54,167 bases of DNA from an uncultured Clostridia bacterium. GTDB lineage: Bacteria > Bacillota > Clostridia > TANB77 > CAG-508. Every line of letters begins with the position of its first letter. The first letter of the stretch is position 1. Positions 3,112 through 18,840 of the stretch are shown one piece after another. The DNA is taken from assembly GCA_947589645.1 (NCBI GenBank), contig CANQCG010000006.1, positions 1 to 54,167 on the forward strand, given 5' to 3'. The position numbers were made by a program, and so were the translations under genes. The notes under the pieces were generated by a model. It had not been told where the DNA came from. It worked only from the letters and a program-made list of their open reading frames with translations, and searched no databases.

Positions 3112-4216
3112 TTAATTTATATTATTTTTTAAGCAAGCTTCTATAAAACCATCTATTTCACCATTCATAACGGCTTCAACATTTCCAACTTCGTAATTTG
3201 TTCTATGATCTTTTACTAAAGTGTATGGGCAAAATACATAAGAACGTATTTGACTTCCCCATGCAATATCTCTTTGTTCGCCCTTTAATTCCTGTATTGT
3301 TTCCTTTTGCTCTCTTTCTTTTAAATCTAATAATTTTGATTTTAACATTTTCATTGCAGTATCTTTATTTTGAAATTGTGAACGTTCGGTTTGGCAAGCT
3401 ACTACTATTCCAGTTGGAATATGTGTTAATCTTACGGCTGATGAGGTTTTGTTTATATGTTGTCCACCTGCACCAGAGGCCCTGTATACATCCATTTTTA
3501 TATCTTCAGGGTTTATATCTAATTCTATGTCATCTGTTATTTCTGGTAATACTTCTAAAGAAGCAAATGAGGTATGTCTTCTTCCTCCTGCATCAAATGG
3601 AGAGATTCTAACTAGACGATGTACTCCTTTTTCACATTTTAGGTATCCATACGCATTTTCGCCAATTATTTCAAAGGTTACACTTTTAAGGCCTGCCTCA
3701 TCACCCTCTAAATAATCAAGTTCTTGTACTTCAAATCCATTTTTAGTTGCCCATCTTGTATACATTCTGTATAGCATTTCTGCCCAGTCTTGTGATTCTG
3801 TTCCACCTGCTCCAGGGTGTAAAGTTAAAATCGCATTATTTTTATCATATTTGCCTGATAAAAGTGTTGAAAGCTCAAATTTCTCTAGATCTTTTTGAAG
3901 TGTCAAAGTATTTTTTAATATGTCAGCCGCCATTTGCTCATCATTTTCCACAGTTACTAATTCAGTTAGTTCTTGTAAACTTTTTATTTCATTTTTGAGC
4001 CTATGGTATGTGTTACATTTATTTTTTAAAGATTTAATTTTAGAAAGAATTGAAGAACTTTTTGTACTATCGTTCCAAAAACCTTCCTTAATTGTTTCTT
4101 TTTCTAAGATAGATAATTCACTTTCTAGTTTGGAAATGTCAAAGTGAATCACCTAAACTTTGTAATTTTTCTTTCATTGATTGTAATAATCGAGTATTTT
4201 CATCTAATTCGACCAA
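3112..4216 (-). CDS. prfB: Peptide chain release factor 2, made by programmed +1 frameshift
   Basis: RF2 recognises UAA and UGA stop codons and releases the finished protein. The main frame (from 4140 down) holds the SPF anticodon-like tripeptide (RISPFDAGG) and the GGQ motif (GAGGQHINKTSSAVR). The first 25 codons lie in another frame, starting at TTG 4216 (MVELDENTRLL) or possibly GTG 4225. They end at an in-frame TGA in CTT-TGA-C at 4144-4138. The TTG is favoured because AGGAAGTGA lies 5 bases ahead of it. Joined, the protein is about 367 residues, normal for RF2. The dGTPase-like gene ends its upstream neighbour 32 bases away. Confidence 0.95.
4138..4156 (-). promoter_or_regulatory. RF2 programmed +1 frameshift site
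   Basis: The minus strand reads TTTAGGTGATTCACTTTGAC. CTT-TGA-C is the classic slippery site, with the SD-like AGGTGA a few bases upstream acting as stimulator. Slow reading of UGA when RF2 is scarce lets the ribosome slip +1 into the long frame, giving autoregulation. This mechanism is established for prfB of most bacteria. Confidence 0.93.
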
Positions 4217-4248
4217 ACTATTCACTTCCTTCTATACGATGTAATTTT

Positions 4249-5424
4249 TCAAAATCTGATTATTTTATTATACATATCAATAGCATAATTATCTGTCATT
4301 CCTGAAATATACAAGATGATAGCTTTATAATAATCTTTTTCATCTTGAATATTAAATATTACATCATTTTTATTTTCCGCGTTTCTTTCTAAATTCCAAT
4401 AATTTTTTAGCCAATCATTAAAATCGTTCAGCAAATCGGGACATATCTTTTCTGCTTTTGACATATTCTTATATGATTCCTTTAGCAAATCATATATAGT
4501 ATTTAGTATTAATTTAAAGTAATGAGTAGATTTTAATAATTTATCTGATAAATAAATTTTTTTATAATTAAACTTTTTTAAGTTATTAACCATTTCGAAT
4601 GTCTTATTTGAAAAGCATAAGCCATCATCACTATTAGAGTTCATACATAAATCATATATTAAATCACTAATTATATTTGTATTATTTATAACTGAATTGC
4701 AATTTAAAATATTATATAATTCTTTAAGATTTTTGTCTAAAATGCCTAAGGTTATAGCATCTGCGATGTCTCTTCCTAAATAAGATATTTTATCAGCAAC
4801 TTTAACAACGCATCCTTCCCATGTGTAAGGTGCAAATTGGTTAGTCTTTTTATATTTTGCTAAATCAATATATTCGTCACGTGGTTTTAGATTATTTTGA
4901 TCTATTTCGCCACAATGAGAAATGATTCCATCTCTTACCGCATATGTTAAGTTCATGTTTTGCTTATTACCTTCTATGTCTTCTAACAATTCTATTTTGT
5001 CGACCATTTGTAGCCCATTTTTTTCATGCCAAAAACTTTCTCCAATATCTCTTTTTGAAATTTCTGATAAAAAGCTTTCGCCTTGATGCCCAAATGGACT
5101 ATGCCCTATGTCATGTGCAGTTGCAATTGCTCTTGTAAGGTCAGTATTTAATCCTAAATTTTTTGCAATGGTATAACTTATAGATTCTACATGTACAACA
5201 TGTTCTATTCTAGTGCAGATATGGTCATTTTGAGGAGAGAAAAATACTTGAGTTTTATTCTTCAGTCTTCTATATCCCATGCTATGTATAATTCTTGTAT
5301 AATCTCTTTCAAATTCTGTACGTGTATCATTACTTCTTGTATATAGTGTTTTTTCTCTTTTTATTGCATGTTGCCATTTTGGACTATTTTCAGTTGTAGC
5401 TAAGTTTGATAAATTATTGTTCAT
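4249..5424 (-). CDS. dgt: dGTPase-like HD-domain triphosphohydrolase
   Basis: A 391-residue HD-superfamily protein of the dGTPase type, which hydrolyses deoxynucleoside triphosphates to the nucleoside and tripolyphosphate. Visible motifs: MGYRRLKNKTQVF near residue 50, TRIEHVVHV with the first metal histidine (about residue 75), and ATAHDIGHSPFGHQGE with the H-D pair at about 104-105. WEGCVVKVADKISYLGRDI supplies the last aspartate. The start is preceded by AGGAGTAAAAT. It sits just upstream of prfB in the same direction. Nucleotide preference cannot be read from the sequence; the gene name is by family likeness. Confidence 0.88.
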   Translation of the reverse strand: MNNNLSNLATTENSPKWQHAIKREKTLYTRSNDTRTEFERDYTRIIHSMGYRRLKNKTQVFFSPQNDHICTRIEHVVHVESISYTIAKNLGLNTDLTRAIATAHDIGHSPFGHQGESFLSEISKRDIGESFWHEKNGLQMVDKIELLEDIEGNKQNMNLTYAVRDGIISHCGEIDQNNLKPRDEYIDLAKYKKTNQFAPYTWEGCVVKVADKISYLGRDIADAITLGILDKNLKELYNILNCNSVINNTNIISDLIYDLCMNSNSDDGLCFSNKTFEMVNNLKKFNYKKIYLSDKLLKSTHYFKLILNTIYDLLKESYKNMSKAEKICPDLLNDFNDWLKNYWNLERNAENKNDVIFNIQDEKDYYKAIILYISGMTDNYAIDMYNKIIRF

Positions 5425-6361: not shown

Positions 6362-9300
6362 TTACCTCTTTAATAATTTATCCAAAAATTCTTCCAATTC
6401 TTTTTTCTTTGGAAATATATAAGGTTTTAATTGAAATGTACTTTTCAAAGAATCTGTGTAATATACGGTATTGTCTTTTAAAGATTTTAAAGAAACACCA
6501 TCAATCAAAGAATCTGCATCAGAATCGTTTAGTGCAAATACATATCTTTCTGGAAATTTGTTAAGAACATTTTCACCATAATACATACATTCTTTTACAC
6601 TTTGGAATTCTAAAGATGTTATAATAAAATTAATTCCATAAGCTGAGCCATCATCAATTAATTTTATAAATTTTGCACTAACATTCTCATCACTTGAAGA
6701 ACTGCTATCAAATCCAAAATCAAATGCATTACTGCTCATAAAATCATTGTCATCATTTTCTTGGATTTCTTCTGTTTCTTCTAAATAATCACTTTCATTT
6801 ACGTTTTCACCTTTTATAATATTTTTTAAAACATCTAAATATTGAAAGTTTTTAATTAATACAACTAATTGTTTATCAGTTATATTTTTCTTAGCATCTA
6901 AATAAAAGTCATATGCTTCTTTAATAAATTTAATAATATCTGCTCTTGTTTGTGCAATTTTAAATCTTTCTCCAAATCTACTAAATTCAGTATAATAAGA
7001 ATCCTCAGGTATGTTTCCATCTAGTATTAAATCTCCATCTATATATAATAATTTAGTTTTTTCATTTAACAATACTCCTAATGTATATAGATTTATAATA
7101 TTTTCGTTCATTTTCTCATTTGCACCACAGATTAATGTATTGTGTTTACGTTTTTTATCAAATATTGCTGATAATGGGTCAGCGACTTTAATTAATGTTC
7201 CTATTTTTATTGAAATTGGTAATTTATCTGTCATTTCTACTGGTAAAACAGCCATTAAATCAGTTGTTTTACTTCCTTCAAATGATTGCATATTATACTC
7301 ACAATCAGCAAATTTTGCTGCAATCAAATTCAAATATTTTTCTTGTGTTTTATCATCACAAAATGCTGCTCTTAATCCAATATTATCTTGTTCTGTATAT
7401 TCTTCATTAAGTACAGCTGTTCCAATAGGTCCTCTCATCATATCTAATGCTTTTGTATCGTTTCTGTCTGTAAACAAATATCTAGCATCATATTCACCAC
7501 ATTTTAGACCTATTCTTATTCTCATTTGTTCAATAGTTCCACTATCTAATGATAAATCTGAAATAATTTTAGTTGATTGTGTTGCCATTAATAAATGAAT
7601 TCCATATGAACGACCTTCTGTTACTATTCTCTTTGTTAGTTCTGCGCAATGATTTGCTACTTTACGGTTTGTTGAATCATTAAATAAAATTTGAAATTCA
7701 TCCATAATTACTAGTATTTTAGGCATAGCATTTCCAGATAATTTTACATATTCTGATAATTTAGAGGCATTTACAGATTTAAATTTTTCACTTCGTCTTT
7801 CAATTTCTGAAACTAGGTCTTCTAAAATACTCTCCCCAAATTCTTGCATTGCGTCTAAAGCAAGTAGTTTAATATGAGGTAAACGATAAGAATCATATAT
7901 TTTGAACTCTGTACCTCCTTTAAAGTCCATCAAATATAAATTCAATAAATCTGGTGTATAGTGTAACATTGCACTCATTATTAATGTATGTAATAATGTT
8001 GATTTTCCAGAACCAGTAGCACCAGCGACTAGAGCATGATGTGAAGAGCCTTTTCCAAATACTATTGGGATTATTGATTCTCCATCACCAATTCCTATAG
8101 GTATACTTAAGTCTTTATCAGTATTTCTTGAGAATAATTCTTTGTCTAATATGTCTTCAAATGAGAAACCTTTTCCTTTTATCTTTATACTTACTTCTTT
8201 GTATTTTTTTATAAATTCACTTATAGTTAAATTATCTAAAGGTTCTTTTATTGTAACTGGTAAGTTAAATGGTTCTATATAATAGTTTTTATCTGCAATT
8301 TCTATTATAGAGGAATATGTTTTCATTTTATTTAACATATCATCTATTCCATTATAAGAAGAATAGTCTACATCTTTGTTATATCCTATTAAAGTATAAA
8401 TACCACACTTTCCCCCATTTTTTAATATATTTAATAAAAGTTCTATATTTCTACTTTCAAATCCGGAAGGGAAATCATATATTACAAGCAATTTACATGG
8501 TTCTGCTCTATTAGGATTATTTTGATTATAATCTAATAAGTTTTTATATTTATTTGATAATTTATTTTGAATTAAATCATCAATCTTTATATTTATTTTT
8601 TGTAAAAATTCTGTAATATCTTCTTTGTTTGTATAAATTTTTTCATCAAATGCATCTACACAGTCTTTTTTAAAGTCTAAAAATTGTTGTATACTTCCAC
8701 CCTTTTGCTCACAATCCATAATGCTCACATTTATCTTTGCTACAGGGAACATAGATAGTGTTGACCAAATTATATGGTTTGCAAAATCTAGCATTTTATT
8801 TCTAGTTGACTCTGTATATGTAGTTAAAAAGTTACAAGAAGCTCCACAATCCATAAATAATGGTAATGCAATTTTTCCGTTTTCATCTCTAAATTCTTTT
8901 TGAATTTGTTCATACCCAAAACTATCAATAAATAAATCTGATGGATAATGTGTTATTCCGATAGGAATTTTTCTTAAATATATTGCACTTTCATCAGGCG
9001 AAGTTCCAAATTTTTCATTATATTCTGAAATTGCTGTTTTGATGTTATCTATATTTTCTTGTAAATCTTCATCTGTTTTACTTTCCATAAGATTTCTTAT
9101 GTCTTGTGGTAAAGCAATTCCTTTATTTTTAATACCATCATTTATTAAAATATATTTTGAGAAGAAGTTTCCAAACTCTGGTTTTGATGGCATTGGTAAA
9201 CTTACAAATGGTATTGTTGCATACTCAAAACTATTTGAAGTTTGTTGTATATTAATACAATTTTCTTTTATTTTCTTTATACTATCTTGTAATTCTTTTG

Positions 9301-10744
9301 AGCTTGAATTTTGATCTATAGTTGATTTTCCAGCTATTATTACATAAATTCCACACCTTTGGCCATATAAAATTATATTTTTCAATGCAGATAAAGCTTG
9401 TTCATCTAAACCGTTTGGAAAATCAAATATAGTAAGAATTTCTATTTTATAGTTATAATCTTTATTCTCACTTTTATATTCAAATATATTTTTATATTCT
9501 GTTCCTAATATATCTTGTGATATGTAATCTACTTTTTCATTAAGTGAATATATTTTTTTGATTGCAGAATCTAAACTTGTGTAAAATTTATCTTCAAAAA
9601 GTTCTGGTAATTTCTTTTTAGCATCAAAATATGTTGATACACTATTTCCATGATTCTCGCAATCTATAACACTAAATGTTAAATTCATGACTGGTACAGT
9701 AGATAAAAATGAAAACATCATTCCTTGAACCATTTGTTGTAATGCCATTTTTCCATCTTCTGCTTTTTCAATAAAGATATCAAAAGGTTCAACTGTTGAA
9801 GAAATTAAGGGAAATCTTATTTTATCATCTATTATAAGTAATTTACACTTTTCTGTGATAAAAGATATTAAAGTATTTGATTGTACAAATTCTTTAATAG
9901 GAAAATCGATATATCCTAAATATAGAATATCATTCTTAATTTGATTTGATGTGTTTACTTTTATAAATGATTTTTTATATTCTTCAATTACATCTGCCAT
10001 AAATCTTATTGTTTCTTCTGGTAAAATTACATTAAATTTACTTTCAATATCATTAGAAAGATTGTTTAATATATTCATGTATTCTGTTTCTTGTTTTTCT
10101 TTAAATGCATTTTGTGAATTAATCATCTCTTGTTTTTGCAAGCTATGTTTATCCTTCATTTCTGTAATTGTTTCTTCTGCTGCCATATTTAAATTATTTT
10201 TCATCTCTTCAATAAAATCTTTTACTGTATTTTGAAGGATTATTAATTCTTCATAGTCTTTCTTTCTTTTACTTGAAAACATAAAATTTAAACTATTTAA
10301 AATGGATGGTAACATTTCTTCAGAATATTTTTTACTAATTGATGCAAATTGATCTTTAATGTCTTTTAATATTTCAAAATAGTCCATATTGTCAGAAAAT
10401 TTATCAGTTTTTTTATCTGATAATTCTTCTAATTTTTTTTGTTTCGTTTTTACATAATATTTATCTACAGAAGATAATTTTTTATCCATTTGTGTAATTT
10501 GCTGTTCAATCCTTTTTGCATCATCAATCATAGCTTTTGAATTTTTTTCTAATGATGTAATAGCTTGCTGACAGTCTTTGTCAAATTTTTGATTTTCATA
10601 ATTATATTTATCAAGCATTTGAGCTACCTTAGAGTTATAGTCATTTTGAGATTTTATAATTTTATCATCCATTTCCCCTAAGAATAGAATGAACTCATTA
10701 ATTATAGAAATTATCTTTTTATATGAAATCGATTTTATATCCAT
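6362..10744 (-). CDS. FtsK/SpoIIIE-type multi-domain ATPase, type VII-secretion-like, without visible membrane anchor
   Basis: A 1460-residue ATPase. The ATG at 10744 is preceded by AAAGGA; a TTG 15 bases upstream would overlap that site. Residues 1-210 are predicted coiled coil. Two tandem related segments follow (about 260-560 and 590-850), each with SV(I)DCE or SIMDCE then a FDFP/YDFP strand and a GIY(V/T)-type end, but no Walker A: degenerate FtsK-like domains. The one good ATPase domain has Walker A AGATGSGKST at about 905 and Walker B ILVIMDEF at about 1010. A fourth degenerate domain ends the protein. This chain of ATPase domains resembles EssC/EccC of type VII secretion. The forkhead-associated domains and the two membrane helices of EssC are not seen. 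It is the likely motor for the small WXG100-like proteins encoded upstream. Confidence 0.8.
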   Translation of the reverse strand: MDIKSISYKKIISIINEFILFLGEMDDKIIKSQNDYNSKVAQMLDKYNYENQKFDKDCQQAITSLEKNSKAMIDDAKRIEQQITQMDKKLSSVDKYYVKTKQKKLEELSDKKTDKFSDNMDYFEILKDIKDQFASISKKYSEEMLPSILNSLNFMFSSKRKKDYEELIILQNTVKDFIEEMKNNLNMAAEETITEMKDKHSLQKQEMINSQNAFKEKQETEYMNILNNLSNDIESKFNVILPEETIRFMADVIEEYKKSFIKVNTSNQIKNDILYLGYIDFPIKEFVQSNTLISFITEKCKLLIIDDKIRFPLISSTVEPFDIFIEKAEDGKMALQQMVQGMMFSFLSTVPVMNLTFSVIDCENHGNSVSTYFDAKKKLPELFEDKFYTSLDSAIKKIYSLNEKVDYISQDILGTEYKNIFEYKSENKDYNYKIEILTIFDFPNGLDEQALSALKNIILYGQRCGIYVIIAGKSTIDQNSSSKELQDSIKKIKENCINIQQTSNSFEYATIPFVSLPMPSKPEFGNFFSKYILINDGIKNKGIALPQDIRNLMESKTDEDLQENIDNIKTAISEYNEKFGTSPDESAIYLRKIPIGITHYPSDLFIDSFGYEQIQKEFRDENGKIALPLFMDCGASCNFLTTYTESTRNKMLDFANHIIWSTLSMFPVAKINVSIMDCEQKGGSIQQFLDFKKDCVDAFDEKIYTNKEDITEFLQKINIKIDDLIQNKLSNKYKNLLDYNQNNPNRAEPCKLLVIYDFPSGFESRNIELLLNILKNGGKCGIYTLIGYNKDVDYSSYNGIDDMLNKMKTYSSIIEIADKNYYIEPFNLPVTIKEPLDNLTISEFIKKYKEVSIKIKGKGFSFEDILDKELFSRNTDKDLSIPIGIGDGESIIPIVFGKGSSHHALVAGATGSGKSTLLHTLIMSAMLHYTPDLLNLYLMDFKGGTEFKIYDSYRLPHIKLLALDAMQEFGESILEDLVSEIERRSEKFKSVNASKLSEYVKLSGNAMPKILVIMDEFQILFNDSTNRKVANHCAELTKRIVTEGRSYGIHLLMATQSTKIISDLSLDSGTIEQMRIRIGLKCGEYDARYLFTDRNDTKALDMMRGPIGTAVLNEEYTEQDNIGLRAAFCDDKTQEKYLNLIAAKFADCEYNMQSFEGSKTTDLMAVLPVEMTDKLPISIKIGTLIKVADPLSAIFDKKRKHNTLICGANEKMNENIINLYTLGVLLNEKTKLLYIDGDLILDGNIPEDSYYTEFSRFGERFKIAQTRADIIKFIKEAYDFYLDAKKNITDKQLVVLIKNFQYLDVLKNIIKGENVNESDYLEETEEIQENDDNDFMSSNAFDFGFDSSSSSDENVSAKFIKLIDDGSAYGINFIITSLEFQSVKECMYYGENVLNKFPERYVFALNDSDADSLIDGVSLKSLKDNTVYYTDSLKSTFQLKPYIFPKKKELEEFLDKLLKR

Positions 10745-10763
10745 TTTTATTCCTTTCAACTAT

Positions 10764-11915
10764 TTATTTTTCTTCTAATTCATATTTACATGTACATTTA
10801 TCTCTACAATCCTTTTTGCCGAATCCAACTACTAATGAAGTTGTAACTTGTAATGGATAGCTAAATATTTCAAGCATTTCTCCTCCTATTTCAGGATTAT
10901 TTGTATTGCAAACAATTGTATATTGTTTTAAATTATTAAGTAATCGTGGTATGTAATCTTTATTGTTACTATTCAAAATATCTATTATTAATTTAATTCC
11001 AATAGTTGTTATAAAGTTAATGTCAACAGATATGCCAGGTTCAAATTTTACTGCTTCAATATCCTCTTTATTTGAATAAACATGATGGTTAGCTTGTACA
11101 CGTGAAGACATATTAGACCCTGCTCCTAAAGCACATTCATAACAAGGCATTCCTTTATTTGGTATATGATAAAATATTTCTCCGGCACAAGCTCTTTCCC
11201 AAAATCCTAGAGAAATAAAATATGATGAATAGTAAATACTAATACGATTTGCATAAACATCAGCAGCTCTATTGTCTGCACATCCAACAAATATTGTTTC
11301 TTCAGGTTTACAAAATTCATCAAGTGTAGCTTTTGGTAAATTTTCTACAACTCCCTCAAAACTTATTACATTAACTTTTGGATTAATATTTTTTAATTTT
11401 CGAGTTAATGCATTTATTTTTAAATCTCCTACATCTTCTATTCCACATTGATGTCTGCATATATTATGATATTCCATAACATCTGGATCAACTAGTAAAA
11501 AATTTCCTACTCCAGATTTAGCAAGTTCCATTGCAACTAAACTTCCAACTGAGCCACATCCTAAAATAACTGCACGTTTTTTAGCCATTACATCAGTTTC
11601 TAATATTCCTTTATTTCTTGAAAAAATATTTTGATATAAACTATATACTTCTACCTTTATTTTCTTTCCATTACTATAAAAGTCTATAATATCACCATTA
11701 TATATAGCACATAAATTATTATTATTAGGTTTACTTCCCTCAGGTAAAATATCACATAAGAAATCTCCCCTATTTTTTATCTCTTCTGGAAAAATGTTAA
11801 ATATATTAGTATCTTTAAAATATTTTCCATAAAGTTTGTTTGATGTTTTATCTTTTAATTGCTCGTCTGATATAAATACTACTTTTTCAATTTCATCACC
11901 AAAAAAATTATCCAT
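10764..11915 (-). CDS. ThiF/E1-like ubiquitin-activating-type adenylyltransferase
   Basis: A 383-residue member of the ThiF/MoeB/E1 superfamily, whose enzymes adenylate the C-terminus of a ubiquitin-like protein. The first 110 residues form an extra N-terminal domain that I do not recognise. The adenylation domain shows GCGSVGS at 119-125, LLVDPDVMEYHNICRHQ with the conserved Arg at about 154, DLKINAL with Lys at about 166, and VGCADN with Asp at about 214. CxxC at 258-261 and cysteines at 370, 374 and 376 could bind zinc. C243 (FWERACAGE) is a possible transfer cysteine, but this is a guess. Its start lies 2 bases after the stop of the JAMM gene, so the genes are cotranslated. Partner modifier unknown. 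Confidence 0.85.
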   Translation of the reverse strand: MDNFFGDEIEKVVFISDEQLKDKTSNKLYGKYFKDTNIFNIFPEEIKNRGDFLCDILPEGSKPNNNNLCAIYNGDIIDFYSNGKKIKVEVYSLYQNIFSRNKGILETDVMAKKRAVILGCGSVGSLVAMELAKSGVGNFLLVDPDVMEYHNICRHQCGIEDVGDLKINALTRKLKNINPKVNVISFEGVVENLPKATLDEFCKPEETIFVGCADNRAADVYANRISIYYSSYFISLGFWERACAGEIFYHIPNKGMPCYECALGAGSNMSSRVQANHHVYSNKEDIEAVKFEPGISVDINFITTIGIKLIIDILNSNNKDYIPRLLNNLKQYTIVCNTNNPEIGGEMLEIFSYPLQVTTSLVVGFGKKDCRDKCTCKYELEEK

Positions 11916-11917
11916 TA

Positions 11918-12496
11918 CTACAAATTTCCTCCATTTTCTTCATTGTTATTTTTTAAAATTTCTTTTATGATATCATCTTTATATAAAATACTATACATTT
12001 TATTTTTAAGTCTTTGTTCTGATTTTAATTTTAAATATTCTGGTGGAATAAATTCATCTCCAACTTTATATTGTATTTTTGTATATTTACATGGCTGATC
12101 TACATGATACATTGTGAATCTAAATTCCGGATCTACATTTACTAATCCTGAAATTGCACCTTCAGGTCTCATTCTCGCATATTTTGCATTTGTTCCATCA
12201 TCAGTATGTGAAAATACATCGAAAGAACCAGGATGTCTATGCCATAATCCTATAAGATTTAAAGGCTTATCATATAATTTAGCAATTTTATTTATTAAGT
12301 GTTCTGTATATTTTTGATCATATTCAAAATATGTAACTTTAAAAATCGAATTTGGTCCTGGATCTATTGTTTCTATTATATACCAAGTATCATTTTCTAT
12401 AGTTCCTAAAAATAGCCCTCCAGTTTCTGTTTTTATTTTTTCAGCTGTTTCAGCTAAAACTGCCGTAAAAGCTCTATTAGAAAAAATTACTTCCAT
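11918..12496 (-). CDS. JAMM/JAB-domain metalloprotease (deubiquitinase-like)
   Basis: A 192-residue JAB/MPN+ protein. The full JAMM zinc signature is present: Glu25 in TETGGLFLG, then HRHPGSFDVFSHTD with His86, His88, Ser96 and Asp99, spaced H-x-H-x7-S-x2-D. Such enzymes remove ubiquitin-like proteins from targets or trim their C-termini. The gene lies directly upstream of the E1-like gene with a 2-base gap and downstream of the E2-like gene. This is the usual set (E2, JAB, E1) of predicted bacterial ubiquitin-like pathways. An intact catalytic site argues for an active isopeptidase. Confidence 0.88.
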   Translation of the reverse strand: MEVIFSNRAFTAVLAETAEKIKTETGGLFLGTIENDTWYIIETIDPGPNSIFKVTYFEYDQKYTEHLINKIAKLYDKPLNLIGLWHRHPGSFDVFSHTDDGTNAKYARMRPEGAISGLVNVDPEFRFTMYHVDQPCKYTKIQYKVGDEFIPPEYLKLKSEQRLKNKMYSILYKDDIIKEILKNNNEENGGNL

Positions 12497-12509
12497 GTTA
12501 GTTCCTCTT

Positions 12510-12537
12510 TTCCTATTTTATATAATATTGTTTATTT
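12510..12537 (-). promoter_or_regulatory. Possible internal promoter for the JAMM-E1-ATPase genes
   Basis: Downstream of the hairpin at 12546-12580 the minus strand reads TTACTT, a 17-base spacer and TAAAAT, ending about 25 bases before the JAMM start codon. Position is good but the -35 box is poor and the region is very AT-rich. Confidence 0.3.
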
Positions 12538-12545
12538 AAGTAAAA

Positions 12546-12580
12546 GAAGTGTTTATTCTATGCTTTTAGATAAACACTTC
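12546..12580 (-). terminator. Hairpin with T-rich tail between E2-like and JAMM genes
   Basis: GAAGTGTTTAT and ATAAACACTTC form a perfect 11-bp stem, 7 bases after the stop codon of the E2-like gene. On the minus strand it is followed by TTTTACTT. It should end or reduce transcription between the two halves of the cluster, or act as a processing site. Confidence 0.6.
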
Positions 12581-12586
12581 ATAATA

Positions 12587-13102
12587 TTAATAATTGCCTT
12601 CTAAAGCAACATCATCACTTATCTCACCATTTAACCACATCTCACATAATACAATCCATTTACAAGCCCAACTAAGTGCAGATGCTGCAGAAGTTGATCT
12701 ATTTTGTCCGGCTTTAAAATATTTAGGGTCTGCTGTACAAATAAAATATTCTTCGTTTCTTCCAAAATTGCTTCTATATATGTGTGGTAATCCTAAACCT
12801 AGTCCTGCTTCTGGTCTAATTGGCAAATTACGTGCAATATCTTTTAATCTTGGAGATACAGGTAAAATTTGAATTGATCCCCCATATTCACCATCAGCAG
12901 TATATGGATGATTGTTTTTGTAAATTAACATTAAATCCCATACCATACCATTAGGACCAGTTGGTTGAACTTTTCCTCTCCAATATAATCTTCCAGAACC
13001 ATCTTGTAATTGGTTTATTTTAAAAGATGGAAAAAACTTTCTCATAGCAGCAACTTCTGCTTTGTATAGTTCTGGGTCACTTTCATACCAATAAAATGCC
13101 AT
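12587..13102 (-). CDS. E2-like (UBC-fold) protein
   Basis: A 171-residue protein whose order of motifs resembles a ubiquitin-conjugating E2. There is a helical start, then strands (GRLYWRGKVQPTG, VWDLMLIYKNNHPYT), a proline-rich stretch (IQILPVSP), LPHIYRSN with His107, and EEYFICTADP with Cys122. The last places a cysteine where the E2 active site is expected. A Trp-rich final helix (SALSWACKWIVLCEMWL) follows. In E2s the cysteine carries the modifier received from E1. Its neighbours are JAMM and E1-like genes, which strongly supports the call. AGGAGG precedes the ATG. The fold assignment rests on motif order and context, not on a search. Confidence 0.62.
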   Translation of the reverse strand: MAFYWYESDPELYKAEVAAMRKFFPSFKINQLQDGSGRLYWRGKVQPTGPNGMVWDLMLIYKNNHPYTADGEYGGSIQILPVSPRLKDIARNLPIRPEAGLGLGLPHIYRSNFGRNEEYFICTADPKYFKAGQNRSTSAASALSWACKWIVLCEMWLNGEISDDVALEGNY

Positions 13103-13118
13103 TTTATTTTCCTCCTTT

Positions 13119-13289
13119 TTATGCTAATTTTCCTTCTGGAACAGATATTGCTGGGGTATCACTATTTTCTGCTTCATCTTTAAATTCAACTTCTCCTGTT
13201 GGAGTTACTACTACTTCCCCATTTGTTCTTAATGCTTCAGCTAAAGCTCTACGACGTTGAGCAATAGCATTATTATCATTTTCATCCAT
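13119..13289 (-). CDS. 56-residue acidic protein between E2-like and zinc-finger genes
   Basis: ATG at 13289 with AGGAGGAAG eight bases upstream, stop at 13119; 56 codons. The protein starts MDENDNNAIAQRRRALAEAL, a likely helix with three arginines, then VVVTPTGEVEFKDEAE and an apparently disordered tail ending VPEGKLA. It is tightly packed, 16 bases from the E2-like gene and 32 from the zinc-finger gene, so it is almost certainly a real operon member. No family is recognised. It is too short for a full beta-grasp ubiquitin fold. It could be a small disordered modifier or an adaptor, but that is speculation. Confidence 0.7.
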   Translation of the reverse strand: MDENDNNAIAQRRRALAEALRTNGEVVVTPTGEVEFKDEAENSDTPAISVPEGKLA

Positions 13290-13321
13290 TTTATATCTTC
13301 CTCCTATTATTATTTTATTAT

Positions 13322-14230
13322 TTATGCTGCAACAAAGTTTCTAATAATTTCTCCGTTTTCTGCTATTGTAGTTGTAGCTCTTCTTAACATTTGATCAGCT
13401 GCTTCTTCACCACTATCTCTAAGTACTCTTGCATATGAGTTATTATATAATTCGCTACCTTCTTGCATAAGTGTCTCTAAATCAACACCTCTATTTTTAA
13501 CAGCTACTTCCATATAAGCCATAAAGTCTTGTAATTGTTGTAATGCTTCCATATCTTGTTTAATTGCTTTTGATGCTTTTATTATATAAATTGTATAATT
13601 AATTAATTTAGCTATTGTTCTTATGGTACATTGTACTGCTACAATTAGAAATTTAAGAATTCCTGTTAAAAAGTTAAAAATTGCATTAGCTATACTACCA
13701 CCTGATGCTAATTCAAAAACACCTTTGAAAACTTCAACTAGTGCAGAACCAATTGGTTTTATTGCTACAAGTAAAGAACCACATATCATTGCAAATATTA
13801 ATGCCATAATAGGTCCATCAGATGCGCCCATCATTGCACCTATAACTACGCCAACGATTGTTAATATGTATTGGAACATTATCTTATTTTTATCTTTCTG
13901 TAATTTACGTTTGTCTTCTTCAACTAAAGCTTTGCAACAATCATAGCAAAGATTTTGTCCTGCATATTGACCTCCATCTACTGAGCAACTTTCAGCACAA
14001 TCCTTACATATACTCTTACCACATCTTACACAATGTGCAACTGCTGGTTCTGATGGGTGATGATAACATACTTCACCATCAATTTTTCCATTTGCTGGTG
14101 CTCTAAAAGTAGGTACTTCGTCTTCAGATGGTGGTGTAAATGTTGGTATTTCTTCTTCTGCTGGTCCTTTAAATGTAGGTATTTCTTCAACATTATTTTC
14201 TACTTCCTTATTTTCTTCTTTTATTTCCAT
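13322..14230 (-). CDS. B-box-type zinc-finger membrane protein with repeated PTF motifs
   Basis: A 302-residue protein. Residues about 16-50 hold three tandem 11-residue repeats (EEIPTFKGPAE, EEIPTFTPPSE, DEVPTFRAPAN). A B-box-like treble-clef zinc finger follows at about 55-105: CYHHPSEPAVAHCVRCGKSI, then CKDCAESC and CYDCC. Then come hydrophobic segments at about 117-137 (QYILTIVGVVIGAMMGA), 142-160 (IMALIFAMICGSLLVAI) and about 185-222. The C-terminal 80 residues are soluble and helical. RING and B-box fingers are known from predicted prokaryotic ubiquitin-like operons, where an E3 or recruiting role is proposed. Here it may anchor the pathway at the membrane. AGGAGG precedes the start. 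Confidence 0.72.
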   Translation of the reverse strand: MEIKEENKEVENNVEEIPTFKGPAEEEIPTFTPPSEDEVPTFRAPANGKIDGEVCYHHPSEPAVAHCVRCGKSICKDCAESCSVDGGQYAGQNLCYDCCKALVEEDKRKLQKDKNKIMFQYILTIVGVVIGAMMGASDGPIMALIFAMICGSLLVAIKPIGSALVEVFKGVFELASGGSIANAIFNFLTGILKFLIVAVQCTIRTIAKLINYTIYIIKASKAIKQDMEALQQLQDFMAYMEVAVKNRGVDLETLMQEGSELYNNSYARVLRDSGEEAADQMLRRATTTIAENGEIIRNFVAA

Positions 14231-14245
14231 TGTAATTCCTCCTAT

Positions 14246-14512
14246 TTAAAAAGATATTTTATTATATTTTTCTACTATTTTAATTAGTTTTTCTACTTTA
14301 TCTCTAGTTTTCTTTAATGTAGGCATTGGCTCTAATAATTTTGTATTTAATTCTTTAATAGCTTTTAAGAATTGTGTACCTTTTTCATCTGACCAATCTA
14401 CTTTATTCATAAATTGTGTTAATTTATCATTTAAAGCAAAAATTTCTTTTGCACCATTATTTATAAGATCTTTCATATCTGTTAAATCTTTAACTGATGT
14501 ATTAACAGCCAT
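14246..14512 (-). CDS. WXG100-like small helical protein (A)
   Basis: An 88-residue all-helical protein starting MAVNTSVKDLT; AAAGGAGG precedes this ATG, so a longer frame beginning at TTG 14530 is rejected. A tryptophan turn (KVDWSDEKGTQF) sits between two helices, like the W-x-G bend of WXG100/ESAT-6 proteins, which are exported as helical hairpins by type VII systems. The glycine is replaced (WSD). It is encoded next to a second such protein and in the same cluster as an EssC-like ATPase. Family call by size, shape and context. Confidence 0.62.
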   Translation of the reverse strand: MAVNTSVKDLTDMKDLINNGAKEIFALNDKLTQFMNKVDWSDEKGTQFLKAIKELNTKLLEPMPTLKKTRDKVEKLIKIVEKYNKISF

Positions 14513-14530
14513 TTTATTTCCTCCTTTCAA

Positions 14531-14815
14531 TTAAACAATTGGTGTATCATATTCTATGATGTATTCTCTTATTTTCTTAAGAGTTTGTTCTATGCCAACT
14601 ATATCTAATCTTGCTGTACGTAATGATGTAAGACTTTCATCAACTGATTTTTTAACTTCTTTATATCTATCATCATTCCAATTTTTTCCTATTTGAGTGC
14701 TTTTATCATTCATATTTTTAATTAATTTTGCAGATTTATTTAGAACACTATTACAAATGTCCAAAGCCTCATCTACTGTCTCTTTGCTAATTTCCATTTT
14801 TTTATTGTCTGCCAT
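14531..14815 (-). CDS. WXG100-like small helical protein (B)
   Basis: A 94-residue helical protein (MADNKKMEISKETVDEALD) with a tryptophan turn (IGKNWNDDRYKEVKK) midway between two long helices, again W-x-D rather than W-x-G. AAAGGAGAT lies ahead of the ATG. It lies 18 bases upstream of the start of protein A, suggesting the two are made in equal amounts and may pair, as ESAT-6/CFP-10 type proteins do. Likely a secreted substrate or structural partner of the FtsK-type ATPase. Confidence 0.62.
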   Translation of the reverse strand: MADNKKMEISKETVDEALDICNSVLNKSAKLIKNMNDKSTQIGKNWNDDRYKEVKKSVDESLTSLRTARLDIVGIEQTLKKIREYIIEYDTPIV

Positions 14816-14871
14816 ATTTTTTCATCTCCTTTCAAACTTTAAAAATAATAATATATATATAAAATTAAAAA

Positions 14872-15615
14872 CTATGTATTTAAATACTCTTGCACATAAG
14901 ATATACATTTTTCTATACCAGAAAGAGTATTTGAACTATGATCTAATACCTTGTGCTTAAATTCTTTTGAAGTTTCTTCTAATTCTTCTAGACTATCATT
15001 TAGCTTTTTGCCAGATTCTTTTAAATTTTCTAATTTATCCATAGATTTTGCAAGCTCTTTTTTTGCAAGTTGTAGTTCATACTTTTTTTGTGATAATGTA
15101 TTTTGCAATTTTTCTAATGTAGTTTCTTGTTTATCTATATTTATTCTAGTCTGCCTTCTTTCACTTGCTAATGTATTATTATTTCTTTCTTTTTCAAAAA
15201 TTTGGCTTTGTACTTGATTAATACTATTCAAAATACTTTGTTTTGATTCATCATCTTGGCAATTTTGAAAACTAGCTTCTAATGATTGTTTTGTTGCTCT
15301 TAATCTCGTAAGATCATTATTATTTTTAAGTATAGTGTTTTCTATACTTTGCAGTTTTATTTCTAAAGAAGATATTTCTCTTTTAGTATTTGATATTCCA
15401 TTTTCTGTTTTATCTATTTCGTTTGATACTTTTTTAACAGTTGTTTCGTTTTCTATAACTTTTGTTTTTTGCTTATTAACTGTTTCTTCGCATTCTTCTT
15501 TTAATTTTTCTATGTTCTTTTTTTGTTGCTTTGCTGTTTTTTCAACATTATTTCTAAATTCTATTAGCGATTCTTGGACTATATTTAATCCTTTTTCACT
15601 TACTTGCATTTGCAT
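14872..15615 (-). CDS. Long coiled-coil protein of the secretion-like cluster
   Basis: A 247-residue protein almost wholly of heptad repeats (from about residue 15 to 225), rich in Lys, Glu, Gln and Asn, with no signal peptide or membrane helix. GGGGAAG precedes the ATG. It lies between two WXG100-like genes and so probably takes part in the same machine, perhaps as scaffold or as a long helical substrate. The N-terminus of the FtsK-type ATPase is also coiled coil, so direct contact is possible. No family recognised. Confidence 0.65.
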   Translation of the reverse strand: MQMQVSEKGLNIVQESLIEFRNNVEKTAKQQKKNIEKLKEECEETVNKQKTKVIENETTVKKVSNEIDKTENGISNTKREISSLEIKLQSIENTILKNNNDLTRLRATKQSLEASFQNCQDDESKQSILNSINQVQSQIFEKERNNNTLASERRQTRINIDKQETTLEKLQNTLSQKKYELQLAKKELAKSMDKLENLKESGKKLNDSLEELEETSKEFKHKVLDHSSNTLSGIEKCISYVQEYLNT

Positions 15616-15642
15616 AATTTCTTCCCCTATTATATATTATTT

Positions 15643-15867
15643 TTATGAATTATTATAAGATGAAAAATTTTTAATTGCTTTTTTACACTTTTCCCCAGCA
15701 TTAATTAATTCTTTTGAATCGTTGGCAATTTCTTGTATCGACTTATATAATTGTTTAAATTTTTCGTCTTTCCATTCAACATTTGCCTTATTTATTTTTT
15801 CACTTAAATTTTTTACATATGACCTAAAATCTTCTATATCTTGTAAAACTAAATCTGAATTTTCCAT
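15643..15867 (-). CDS. WXG100-like small helical protein (C), first gene of operon
   Basis: A 74-residue helical protein with the central turn ANVEWKDEKFKQLYKS, the same W-x-D-x pattern as the two other small proteins of this cluster. AGAGGAAG lies 3 bases before the ATG. It is the promoter-proximal gene, about 35 bases downstream of the predicted start of transcription, so it is likely made in high amount. Confidence 0.62.
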   Translation of the reverse strand: MENSDLVLQDIEDFRSYVKNLSEKINKANVEWKDEKFKQLYKSIQEIANDSKELINAGEKCKKAIKNFSSYNNS

Positions 15868-16049: not shown

Positions 16050-18809
16050 TTATATTTCTTGCCTGAGCCGGCATGGGCAAGGATCATTTCTGCCAACCTT
16101 AGGGCCTTGATTTACAACAGTTCTATTATTTTCACCATTTGCAGTACTTTGAGACCTTTGCACACTATCTAAGCTATTTAATGGTTGCAAAGCAGCACCT
16201 GTTATTCTAACGGCTTGCTCCCTTTTTGCTTCTTCTTGTTTACGCAAATTCATTAACATTTTTACTACATCAAGCTTAATATCTTCAACCATTTCGTCAA
16301 ACATATCAAAACCTTCGATTCTGTATTGTACAACAGGATCCTTTTGACCATAAGCACGAAGACCAATACCATCTTTTAATTCATCCATACTGTCTATATG
16401 ATCCATCCATTTTTGGTCTACTACTTTAAGCATTACTACTCTTTCAAGTTCTCTTAAGGCTTCACTTCCAATTTCTTGCTCTTTAGCTTGATATTGGTTA
16501 TGTGCTTTTTCTTTTAAATCTTCTATTATACTATTTGCATTTTTAGAATTTTGTTTTATAAATTCTTTAGTTGCTTCATAAACTTCTGGTCCAAATGTAT
16601 TTCTTATTTCAGTACATAATGCTGATATATTCATTTCTTCATTACTATTTTCTGTGCTATATGCTAAAACTGTACTTTCTGCAACTGAATCAATCATTTT
16701 TGAGATGTTATCACTAATGTTTTCTCCATCTAATACTTGTCTTCTTTGTTTATAGATAATTTCTCTTTGAACATTCATAACATCATCATATTTTAATACA
16801 TTTTTTCTAGTTGTAAAGTTACGACCTTCAACTCTTTTTTGAGCTGTTTCAACTGAATTAGATATTACTTTAGAATCTATTGGCATATTTTCGTCAACAC
16901 CTAAAGAGTTAAATACTTTAGTTATTGCATCTCCACCAAATATTTTCATTAAATCGTCATCTAGACCTATATAGAATTTAGATTGTCCTGGATCTCCTTG
17001 ACGTCCACTACGACCACGTAACTGATTATCAATTCTTCTTGATTCATGTCGTTCTGTACCTATTATTTTTAAACCGCCTGCTTCAATTACCTTTTTCTTT
17101 TCTTCTTTTATTTGTTCATTAAATTTATTTTCTAAATTTCTAAAGGTTTCTCTTGCTTGCAATATATCTTGATTATCTGTTTCATAATAAGTGTTAGCTT
17201 CTTCTATTAATTCTTCTGGTACTTTATTTTTACGCATTTCTTGCTTTGCTAAAAACTCACTATTACCGCCAAGCATAATATCAGTACCACGTCCTGCCAT
17301 GTTTGTTGCTATTGTTACAGCTCCAAATTTACCAGCTTGTGCAATGATTTCCGCTTCTTTTTCATGAAATTTTGCATTTAATACCTCATGCTTAATTCCT
17401 TCTTTTGATAATATTTTGCTTAATTTTTCAGATTTCTCAATAGAAACAGTACCAACAAGTACTGGCTGACCTTTTTCATGACTTTCTTTAATACTATTTA
17501 CTATAGCATTAAATTTTGCTTTTTCATTTTTATAAATTACATCATTTTGATCAACTCTAATTAGTGGTTTATTTGTTGGAATTGATACAACATCTAAGTT
17601 GTATATTTCTTGGAATTCTTCCGCTTCTGTTAATGCAGTACCTGTCATTCCAGAAAGCTTTTCATACATTCTAAAGTAATTTTGGAATGTAATTGTAGCT
17701 AATGTTTTTGATTCATCTGCAATTTTTACATGTTCTTTTGCTTCGATTGCTTGGTGAAGACCATTATTATATCTTCTTCCATACATTATACGTCCTGTAA
17801 ATTCATCTACAATTAATACTTCCCCATCTTTTACAATGTAATCTATATCTTTTTTCATTATTCCATGTGCACGCAAAGCTTGGTTTACATGATGCACTAA
17901 AGTAGAGTTTTCGATGTCATTAAAGTTTTCTAATCTAAACTCATCTTCTGCTTTTTTAATACCTTTTTGAGTAAGTGATGCAGATTTTGCTTTTAAATCT
18001 ACTATGTAGTCATAGTTTTCATTATCTTCAGCTTGTTCTACATTTTTTACATCTTCTTCTACTAAAACTTTTGCACTTAATCTTCTTACAAAATCATCTG
18101 CTCTTTTATATAAATCTGAAGATTGATTTGCTCTACCAGATATTATAAGAGGAGTTCTTGCTTCATCTATTAAGATACTATCTATCTCGTCTACTATTGC
18201 ATATACTAAACCTCTTTGAACAAGTTGATTTTTGTAAATTACCATGTTGTCTCTTAAATAGTCAAAACCAAATTCATTATTTGTACCATAAGTTATGTCA
18301 CAGTTATATGCTTTTTGCTTTTGAACTGGATCCATACCAGATATTACAAGACCTACAGATAAACCTAAAAATTTATAAAGTTTGCCCATCCATTCGCTAT
18401 CTCTTTTTGCTAGATAGTCATTTACTGTAATTACATGTACGCCTCTTCCTGTTAAAGCATTTAAGTATACTGGTAATGTTGCAACTAGGGTTTTTCCTTC
18501 ACCTGTTTTCATTTCGGCAATTCTTCCTTGGTGCAAAACAATTCCACCTATTAATTGAACGTCGAAATGTCTCATTCCTAATACTCTTTTTGAAGCCTCT
18601 CGAACTGTTGCAAATGCTTCTGGTAATATATCATCTAATGTTTTACCATTTTTTAATTCTTCTTTAAATTTGTCAGTTTGTGCTCTTAATTCATGGTCAG
18701 ATAATTTTGATATTTGCTCCTCTAGACCATTTATTTTTGCTACTAGAGGCATTATTCTTTTTACTTCTTTTTCACTATATGATTTAAAAATTTTGTTAAA
18801 TATACTCAT
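16050..18809 (-). CDS. secA: SecA preprotein translocase ATPase, C-terminal zinc motif lost by frameshift
   Basis: SecA drives proteins through the SecYEG channel at the membrane. The start chosen is ATG 18809 ([18 protein letters not shown]), 8 bases after AAAGGA; an ATG 9 bases upstream abuts that site. Motifs include [19 protein letters not shown] (Walker A region), [20 protein letters not shown] (DEAD-like box), [14 protein letters not shown] and [10 protein letters not shown]. As read, the protein ends [12 protein letters not shown] instead of the usual [15 protein letters not shown]. Removing one C on the minus strand (plus-strand GG at 16070-16071) restores [15 protein letters not shown] with a stop at 16025. 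So there is either a true mutation or a sequencing error. Confidence 0.97.
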
Positions 18810-18840
18810 TGATAACATCCTTTCAACTGTATTTGTGCAT

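Follow-up and report, generated by a model that had tools for sequence, protein, structure and literature searches.

A candidate 56-residue tag accompanies E1, E2 and JAMM genes in a type VII secretion-like operon of an uncultured Clostridia bacterium

We analysed a 54,167-nucleotide stretch of DNA from an uncultured Clostridia bacterium (contig CANQCG010000006.1, positions 1 to 54,167; hereafter ‘the window’) and describe here an operon of 11 genes on its minus strand. The operon combines E1-, E2- and JAMM-type enzymes, as known from ubiquitin-like conjugation, with genes resembling those of type VII secretion systems (T7SS), and it encodes a conserved 56-residue peptide with the invariant motif P-x-G-K-L-A. 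On balance, we favour the view that it represents a mobile T7SS-like exporter of polymorphic toxins with a built-in ubiquitin-type cascade, in which the peptide serves as the tag. We hold more tentatively a fuller proposal: that this is an undescribed export system whose E1-E2-JAMM enzymes conjugate a non-ubiquitin-fold tag to exporter parts or cargo and so gate or drive toxin secretion, with some members producing the tag in precursor form, one of them as a fusion to a zinc ribbon.

A sequence-only reading of the window had already tied an E1-E2-JAMM pathway to a type VII-like export operon, and the predicted UBC (ubiquitin-conjugating) fold, the invariant catalytic residues, the conserved linkage and the WXG-headed effectors of relatives all bear this out. 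The E1, E2, JAMM, B-box, WXG-like, coiled-coil and ATPase genes that it listed are all present, on one strand and with tight spacing. It missed one gene, however. The set was said to be without a modifier, which is wrong on gene content: a conserved open reading frame (ORF) directly upstream of the E2 gene had been overlooked. The range it gave also ends too early, as the operon runs on to an M48 peptidase gene.

Conjugation enzymes and the 56-residue peptide

The E2 has no Pfam match, and sequence searches of the PDB returned nothing, either with the single sequence or with a 25-row profile. It matches the PADLOC profiles for the E2 of CBASS (cyclic-oligonucleotide-based anti-phage signalling systems) at 1.3e-9. 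An AlphaFold2 model built with 25 homologues (pLDDT 73, pTM 0.74) shows the UBC layout, and its best structural match is the E2 of the CBASS CdnG-E2 complex (8yjy_B, Z 9.0 over 137 residues), followed by the ubiquitin E2 variant (UEV) domain of Tsg101 (Z 8.5) and by UFC1 (Z 7.3); Z-scores of 7 to 9 are weak taken alone. A Foldseek search with the model was likewise weak (best E 0.21), its leading matches being mostly E2 or UEV chains. Cys122, which the sequence-only reading had singled out, is invariant in 25 E2 sequences, including one at only 48% identity. We assign the protein as an E2 because profile, fold and invariant cysteine agree, and the structural check of this 171-residue protein thus ends in a predicted UBC-type fold.

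The JAMM protein matches Pfam Prok-JAB (1e-7) and has Rpn11-like chains as PDB relatives. Glu24, His86, His88, Ser96 and Asp99 are invariant in 24 sequences, so that the complete H-x-H-x7-S-x2-D signature read from the letters holds across the family. JAMM proteins of approximately 175-205 residues occur in the window and in loci L006, L007, L008 and L011, and proteins of approximately 325-360 residues with an extra C-terminal region occur in most other loci (e.g., L013:1925-2950); the divergent L067 protein has 332 residues.

The E1 belongs to the ThiF family (Pfam, 1.4e-27) and matches the CBASS E1-E2 profile (4e-26). Its GxGxxG motif, noted earlier, is G119-C-G-S-V-G124, and the GxGxxG, Asp and Arg residues are invariant. 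The PDB relatives are MccB (best, 1.2e-12), UBA5, MoeB and Cap2, and Cys258 and Cys261 form a CxxC pair that aligns with the CYEC motif of MccB and has the appearance of zinc ligands. The residue sets of the E1 adenylation domain and the JAMM isopeptidase are therefore complete, as a Bil/Bub-like conjugation cascade requires.

The overlooked gene lies between the B-box and E2 genes and has its own Shine-Dalgarno sequence, AGGAGG. The gap between these two genes measures approximately 207-320 bases in most loci (longer in L021, L024, L025 and L027), and in every locus it encodes a peptide of 54-70 residues with its own likely ribosome-binding site. The peptide is present in 24 of 24 close loci. 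Nonsynonymous divergence (pN) is lower than synonymous divergence (pS) in all 276 pairwise comparisons (median ratio 0.32) and all four GKLA codons vary synonymously across loci; by these sequence comparisons, the peptide is under purifying selection at the protein level. The invariant P-x-G-K-L-A stands at or near the C-terminus and is the best-kept part. Beyond GKLA, 13 of the 24 close loci have no further residue and 11 have three or four variable ones. The peptide matches no Pfam or NCBIfam family, and a profile run over 398 genomes of the phylum yielded, apart from the genome of the window itself, nothing better than chance. Three termite-associated loci carry a second small gene (VIKKK...RRK-L...) ahead of the candidate modifier (L021:9529-9759, L025 at about 9553-9792, L027:6814-7092), with a modifier-like helix and hairpin and without the GKLA end.

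A second, divergent branch comprises L029 (Acidaminobacter) and two IMG/VR records, L066 and L067; the L029 E2 shares 42-48% identity with the window's. In all three, the peptide gene lies directly upstream of the E2 gene, and P-x-GKLA is invariant in both branches. The L066 and L067 peptides stop exactly at GKLA, whereas that of L029 continues into a 43-residue zinc ribbon. As the tail beyond GKLA is absent, variable or a zinc ribbon depending on the locus, this end looks like a precursor cleavage point, by analogy with the precursors of ubiquitin or BilA.

No B-box or WXG-like gene was recognised within 10 kb upstream in L029 or upstream in L066, where recombinases and a helix-turn-helix gene are found. 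Since these two loci nevertheless keep the peptide-E2 pair, the peptide appears to travel with the conjugation enzymes. In L067, the order is E2, JAMM, E1, a 74-residue protein, a shorter ATPase (28% identity in the final part), a WxD protein, a coiled-coil protein and a membrane protein. M48 was not found in the two IMG/VR records, both of which are fragments. Further along the L067 contig, downstream of the system, lies a radical-SAM/SPASM-like gene (L068:4072-5367), next to Sel1-repeat and membrane-protein genes; Sel1-repeat proteins are also encoded beside or inside the operon in L015, L016 and L025, as in L067. Together, these properties make the 56-residue peptide a probable modifier; its conjugation, and the target to which it would be joined, we infer from the company it keeps.

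Export genes, effectors and mobility

The ATPase can be divided by eye into an N-terminal coiled coil, two degenerate domains, one active domain and one C-terminal domain; the active domain carries Walker A (GATGSGKS) and Walker B (VIMDE) motifs, both invariant. It matches the NCBIfam models EssC (7.9e-34) and EccCa (1.9e-32), far below their curated cut-offs, and its closest PDB chains are T7SS EccC (4nh0, 6e-33), then EccC5 and YukB, and only then FtsK.

The operon also encodes several small helical proteins. In those called WXG100-like earlier, the motif is W-x-D and not W-x-G; one relative reaches PF06013 at 1.5e-5, just below the cut-off. No invariant lysine, a candidate acceptor, was found in the WXG-like or coiled-coil proteins. 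The B-box protein has seven Cys and one His that are invariant, together with transmembrane segments, and scores 0.0017 against the Pfam B-box model in the window and 2.9e-5, above the cut-off, in one relative. It is a possible membrane dock or E3-like component.

The M48 peptidase gene begins 4 bp after the ATPase gene, and of the approximately 20 relatives whose contigs extend far enough downstream, 12 have an M48 gene behind the ATPase gene or the effector gene next to it. M48 comes directly after the ATPase, with no effector, in the window, L006, L021 and L025. In most relatives, the gene after the ATPase encodes a protein whose N-terminal WxD helical hairpin resembles the small proteins, and the C-termini of these effectors form five clusters under one WXG-like head. 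One carries an HExxH metallopeptidase-like domain (recognised by eye; degenerate in L007 and L008), another a papain-fold glutamine deamidase toxin domain (PF15644, 1.8e-12) and a third a C39-like peptidase domain (PF13529, 1.7e-6 in L023); the remaining two, also recognised by eye, are a second putative papain-like domain and a putative nuclease-like domain.

In the loci with an intact HExxH (L009, L012, L013, L017), one small gene family follows the effector; in four loci of the C39 cluster (L015, L020, L022, L023), another does, with no mixing between the two. Because two toxin-domain clusters each pair with their own small-gene family, the arrangement follows the pattern of polymorphic toxins and immunity proteins. 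A shared delivery head, exchangeable C-termini and cognate small genes are thus all found in relatives, and from these sequence features the effectors would be toxic and the small genes protective. The effectors nearest the window's clade (L007:9727-10731 and L008:16584-17468) keep the metallopeptidase-like domain and have lost HExxH, and no matching immunity gene was found in either locus; they are possibly disarmed toxins reused as structural parts.

Positions and further evidence for the 11 genes are collected in Table 1. They run from 15867 to 5482 with short gaps, flanked by secA (16050-18818) on one side and dgt-prfB (3112-5424) on the other.

Table 1 Genes of the operon in the order of transcription, with window coordinates
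Product	Position	Strand	Evidence
74-residue helical protein, W-x-D hinge, WXG100-like; first gene of the operon	15643..15867	-	W32, D34, F68 invariant (n = 21); same position in relatives
247-residue coiled-coil protein	14872..15615	-	Coiled-coil profile matches; position and size kept in relatives
94-residue WXG-like protein (W-N-D), related to the N-terminus of relatives' effectors	14531..14815	-	phmmer grouping
94-residue WXG-like protein; likely start is an in-frame ATG at 14512	14246..14530	-	W46, D48 invariant (n = 20); PF06013 match in the L004 relative
302-residue B-box-type zinc finger membrane protein, Ala-Ala C-terminus	13322..14230	-	C55, H58, C67, C70, C75, C78, C95, C98 invariant; hydrophobic segments
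56-residue candidate modifier, MDENDNNAIAQRRRALAEALRTNGEVVVTPTGEVEFKDEAENSDTPAISVPEGKLA	13119..13289	-	Found at the 24 close and three divergent loci; under purifying selection; P-x-GKLA invariant
E2-like conjugating enzyme, predicted UBC fold, 171 residues, Cys122	12587..13102	-	PADLOC E2 profile; model and structural match; alignment
JAMM/JAB isopeptidase, 192 residues	11918..12496	-	Pfam; E, HxH, S, D invariant; Rpn11-like PDB chains
E1-like adenylating enzyme, 383 residues	10764..11915	-	Pfam ThiF; CBASS E1-E2 profile; MccB, UBA5, MoeB, Cap2 in PDB
EccC/EssC-type FtsK-HerA ATPase, 1465 residues, likely start ATG at 10744	6362..10759	-	NCBIfam EssC and EccCa; PDB EccC
M48 membrane metallopeptidase, 291 residues	5482..6357	-	Pfam 8e-25; H143-E144-x2-H147 invariant

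One genome scan of approximately 85,000 species found 24 loci. The order from the small WxD protein to the ATPase is kept in 23 close relatives (E2 identity 73-95%) as far as their contigs reach, so that the arrangement is not due to chance and the conserved linkage asked about by the sequence-only reading is found. None of 58 other genomes from the genus has the E2 gene, and two of 391 genomes sampled from the class carry it. The operon, whose gene order is shared by distantly related gut bacteria, is rare, patchy and conserved, the pattern expected of a transferred element. Its loci are labelled Clostridia, Bacilli, Spirochaetes and Phycisphaerales, although most are metagenome bins and single labels may be wrong; L017 is from the cultured Faecalibacterium prausnitzii ATCC 27768. 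A match in genome G167 (L003) was discarded as noise.

Signs of mobility are found at several loci. Serine recombinases and a tyrosine integrase flank L004 and L071, and a serine recombinase flanks L017. In the congener G009, secA is followed directly by prfB and an aspartate kinase gene, whereas the window has the operon and dgt between secA and prfB; the operon with dgt therefore looks like an insertion. The dgt-like gene (4249-5424) occurs in only four of nine congeners searched, is absent between secA and prfB in G009, and may belong to the insertion. L071 (MT836827.1), a human faecal scaffold deposited as phage, carries the E1, ATPase, effector and immunity genes between its recombinase and integrase flanks and is probably an integrative element; its effector is almost identical to that of F. 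prausnitzii. The E2 of the first branch was not found on plasmids or in IMG/VR, the only plasmid match being the E2 of a CBASS operon.

Proposed mechanism and alternatives

We propose that the JAMM protein would trim the residues beyond GKLA where a tail is present. By analogy with CBASS Cap2, the E1 would then adenylate the terminal alanine (Ala56) and hand the peptide over to the E2 at Cys122. The E2 would join it to an exporter component or a substrate. The membrane B-box protein may dock the reaction in an E3-like role, with JAMM making the mark reversible. The EccC-like ATPase would move the WXG-like proteins and the WXG-headed effectors, while M48 may process exported proteins or the apparatus in place of the mycosin protease of T7SSa.

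Several observations weigh against this proposal. No E1 cysteine can be assigned as catalytic. The ATPase has no consistent transmembrane segment, in the window or in relatives, by a simple hydropathy test, unlike T7SS motors, and a Pfam scan of the operon recognised no EssA-, EssB-, EsaA-, EccB- or EccD-like gene. YukD is absent from the genome (PF08817, in a search whose control did find the B. subtilis protein). M48 and effector genes are each missing from some loci, and the window copy has no effector, nor was one found elsewhere in its genome (the only match being the operon's own WXG-like gene, E 0.19). Finally, the peptide model is of low confidence (pLDDT 62, pTM 0.24), with a helix followed by short strands that are not in beta-grasp order; so poor a model is neither evidence for a beta-grasp nor proof against one.

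The chief rival takes the C-terminus of the B-box protein as the end that E1 and E2 activate, in a Cap2-like reaction anchoring targets to the membrane, with the peptide as a regulator or chaperone. A C-terminal alanine is accepted by Cap2 (PMC10097602), and 21 of 23 B-box proteins end in one (mostly Ala-Ala) after a GEIIRxF motif and a spacer of variable length. In L007 and L008, however, the protein ends in Val, whereas P-x-GKLA is invariant in both branches; in L029 and L066, moreover, peptide and E2 persist although no B-box gene could be recognised ahead of them. Ala-Ala at a C-terminus, besides, commonly serves as a degradation signal. We prefer the peptide, whose P-x-GKLA is the stricter motif and persists beside E2 where no upstream B-box gene is recognised, and regard activation of the B-box terminus as unlikely.

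Still less weight falls on three further readings, which we rank equally. MccB of microcin C7 adenylates the C-terminus of a short peptide. As MccB is also the best solved-structure match of our E1, the 56-residue product might give rise to a modified peptide of ribosomal origin, which proteases mature for export; the two encoded peptidases and the radical-SAM/SPASM-like gene downstream in L067 would suit such a pathway. This is improbable: the radical-SAM gene occurs at one locus only, the peptide is accompanied by an E2 with an invariant cysteine and by a JAMM isopeptidase, its C-terminus is invariant where precursor cores usually vary, and the WXG-type effectors already account for the exporter.

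The operon could instead be an intracellular anti-phage or abortive-infection system, in which CBASS-type enzymes control toxins of the same cell and the ATPase is an SspH/HerA-like pump for nucleic acids or proteins. The E1, E2 and JAMM match defence profiles (PADLOC), the ATPase matches SspH at 1e-24, and recombinase-bearing mobile elements harbour several of the loci. The ATPase matches EccC/EssC better than SspH, however; the WXG-like heads and domain-specific small downstream genes mark exported polymorphic toxins, and no cGAS-like cyclase or nucleic-acid sensor was recognised among the translated ORFs or in Pfam scans of the operon, so that we give this explanation little credence.

It is equally doubtful that the peptide is a non-covalent, YukD/EsaB-like part of the exporter, with E1, E2 and JAMM acting on a modifier encoded elsewhere: T7SSb does have a small ubiquitin-fold protein lacking the Gly-Gly end required for conjugation (PMC11217815), and a small protein could fill the place of the missing YukD, but the invariant residues cluster in the C-terminal P-x-GKLA, the tail beyond varies or is absent, and the peptide gene adjoins that of E2 in both branches.

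If tagging by the peptide is correct, bacterial ubiquitin-type conjugation would serve protein secretion, beyond anti-phage defence and cofactor synthesis, and a T7SS-like class would be added to the ten published subtypes. It would also mean that an E1-E2-JAMM relay can run on a tiny, dedicated tag without the ubiquitin fold, which bears on the origins of ubiquitin systems. The copy in cultured F. prausnitzii ATCC 27768 provides an experimental handle.

Comparison with known systems

The system resembles T7SS in its EccC/EssC-type ATPase, its several small WXG-like proteins and, in relatives, its WXG-headed toxin-like proteins with paired genes, and T7SSa also in its membrane-linked protease. 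A survey by Garrett, Higginson and Palmer (2024) defined subtypes c-j beside a and b, with membrane-anchored ATPases and a YukD-type protein in all subtypes but d (PMC11217815). Here, no transmembrane segment is predicted in the ATPase, which begins with a coiled coil, and E1, E2, JAMM, a B-box protein and the 56-residue peptide are added. The terms JAB, ThiF, E1-like, B-box and M48 do not occur in the survey text, nor is this gene set found there (PMC11217815) or in the E1/E2/JAB operon classes, as far as the available portions of those sources extend.

With the Cap2/Cap3 part of Type II CBASS, the operon shares related E1, E2 and JAMM proteins and a UBC-fold E2 with a cysteine at the catalytic position; conjugation through a C-terminal Gly or Ala of a protein that is not a beta-grasp may be a further common feature. 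Cap2 joins a non-beta-grasp cyclase through its C-terminal Gly or Ala (PMC10097602), and the C-terminal alanine of the peptide therefore suits this enzyme family. The differences are that E2 and E1 are separate proteins here, that export genes surround them, and that the peptide would replace the cyclase.

Bub systems use a ubiquitin-like protein as their modifier. In the portions of the literature available for these systems, Bub is described as ubiquitination-like (PMC13373217), Bil has a ubiquitin-fold modifier, BilA, processed by BilC (PMC11354881), and class 6d operons combine E1, E2 and JAMM with a Ub-like modifier (PMC1779556). As in Bil and 6d, the operon thus encodes E1, E2, JAMM and a candidate modifier; unlike the ubiquitin-like modifiers of Bil, Bub and 6d, this one has 56 residues, no confident fold and a GKLA end. 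No exporter is described for Bil, Bub or class 6d operons in those portions (PMC11354881, PMC13373217, PMC1779556), and the 2006 catalogue of E1/E2/JAB operons, in the part available, places YukD with FtsK-like ATPases, lacking E1 and E2, on a different row from the E1/E2/JAB classes (PMC1779556).

Among small tags, the peptide recalls Pup in its size, its probable partial disorder, its short helix and its conserved C-terminus, although Pup works without an E1-E2 relay or JAMM and is handled by the ligases PafA and Dop. To our knowledge, the 56-residue peptide has not been described before. Burroughs, Iyer and Aravind (2011) reportedly predicted E1/E2/JAB operons, B-box proteins partnering membrane peptidases and YukD-like conjugation; because that study of prokaryotic RING and B-box proteins may touch a related operon, we claim novelty for the gene set together with the peptide and the cargo, and not for E1/E2/JAB genes beside secretion genes as such. 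By strict tests, the system is not a member of T7SS subtypes a-j or of CBASS, and we describe it as one that would work like a T7SS equipped with a ubiquitin-type cascade.

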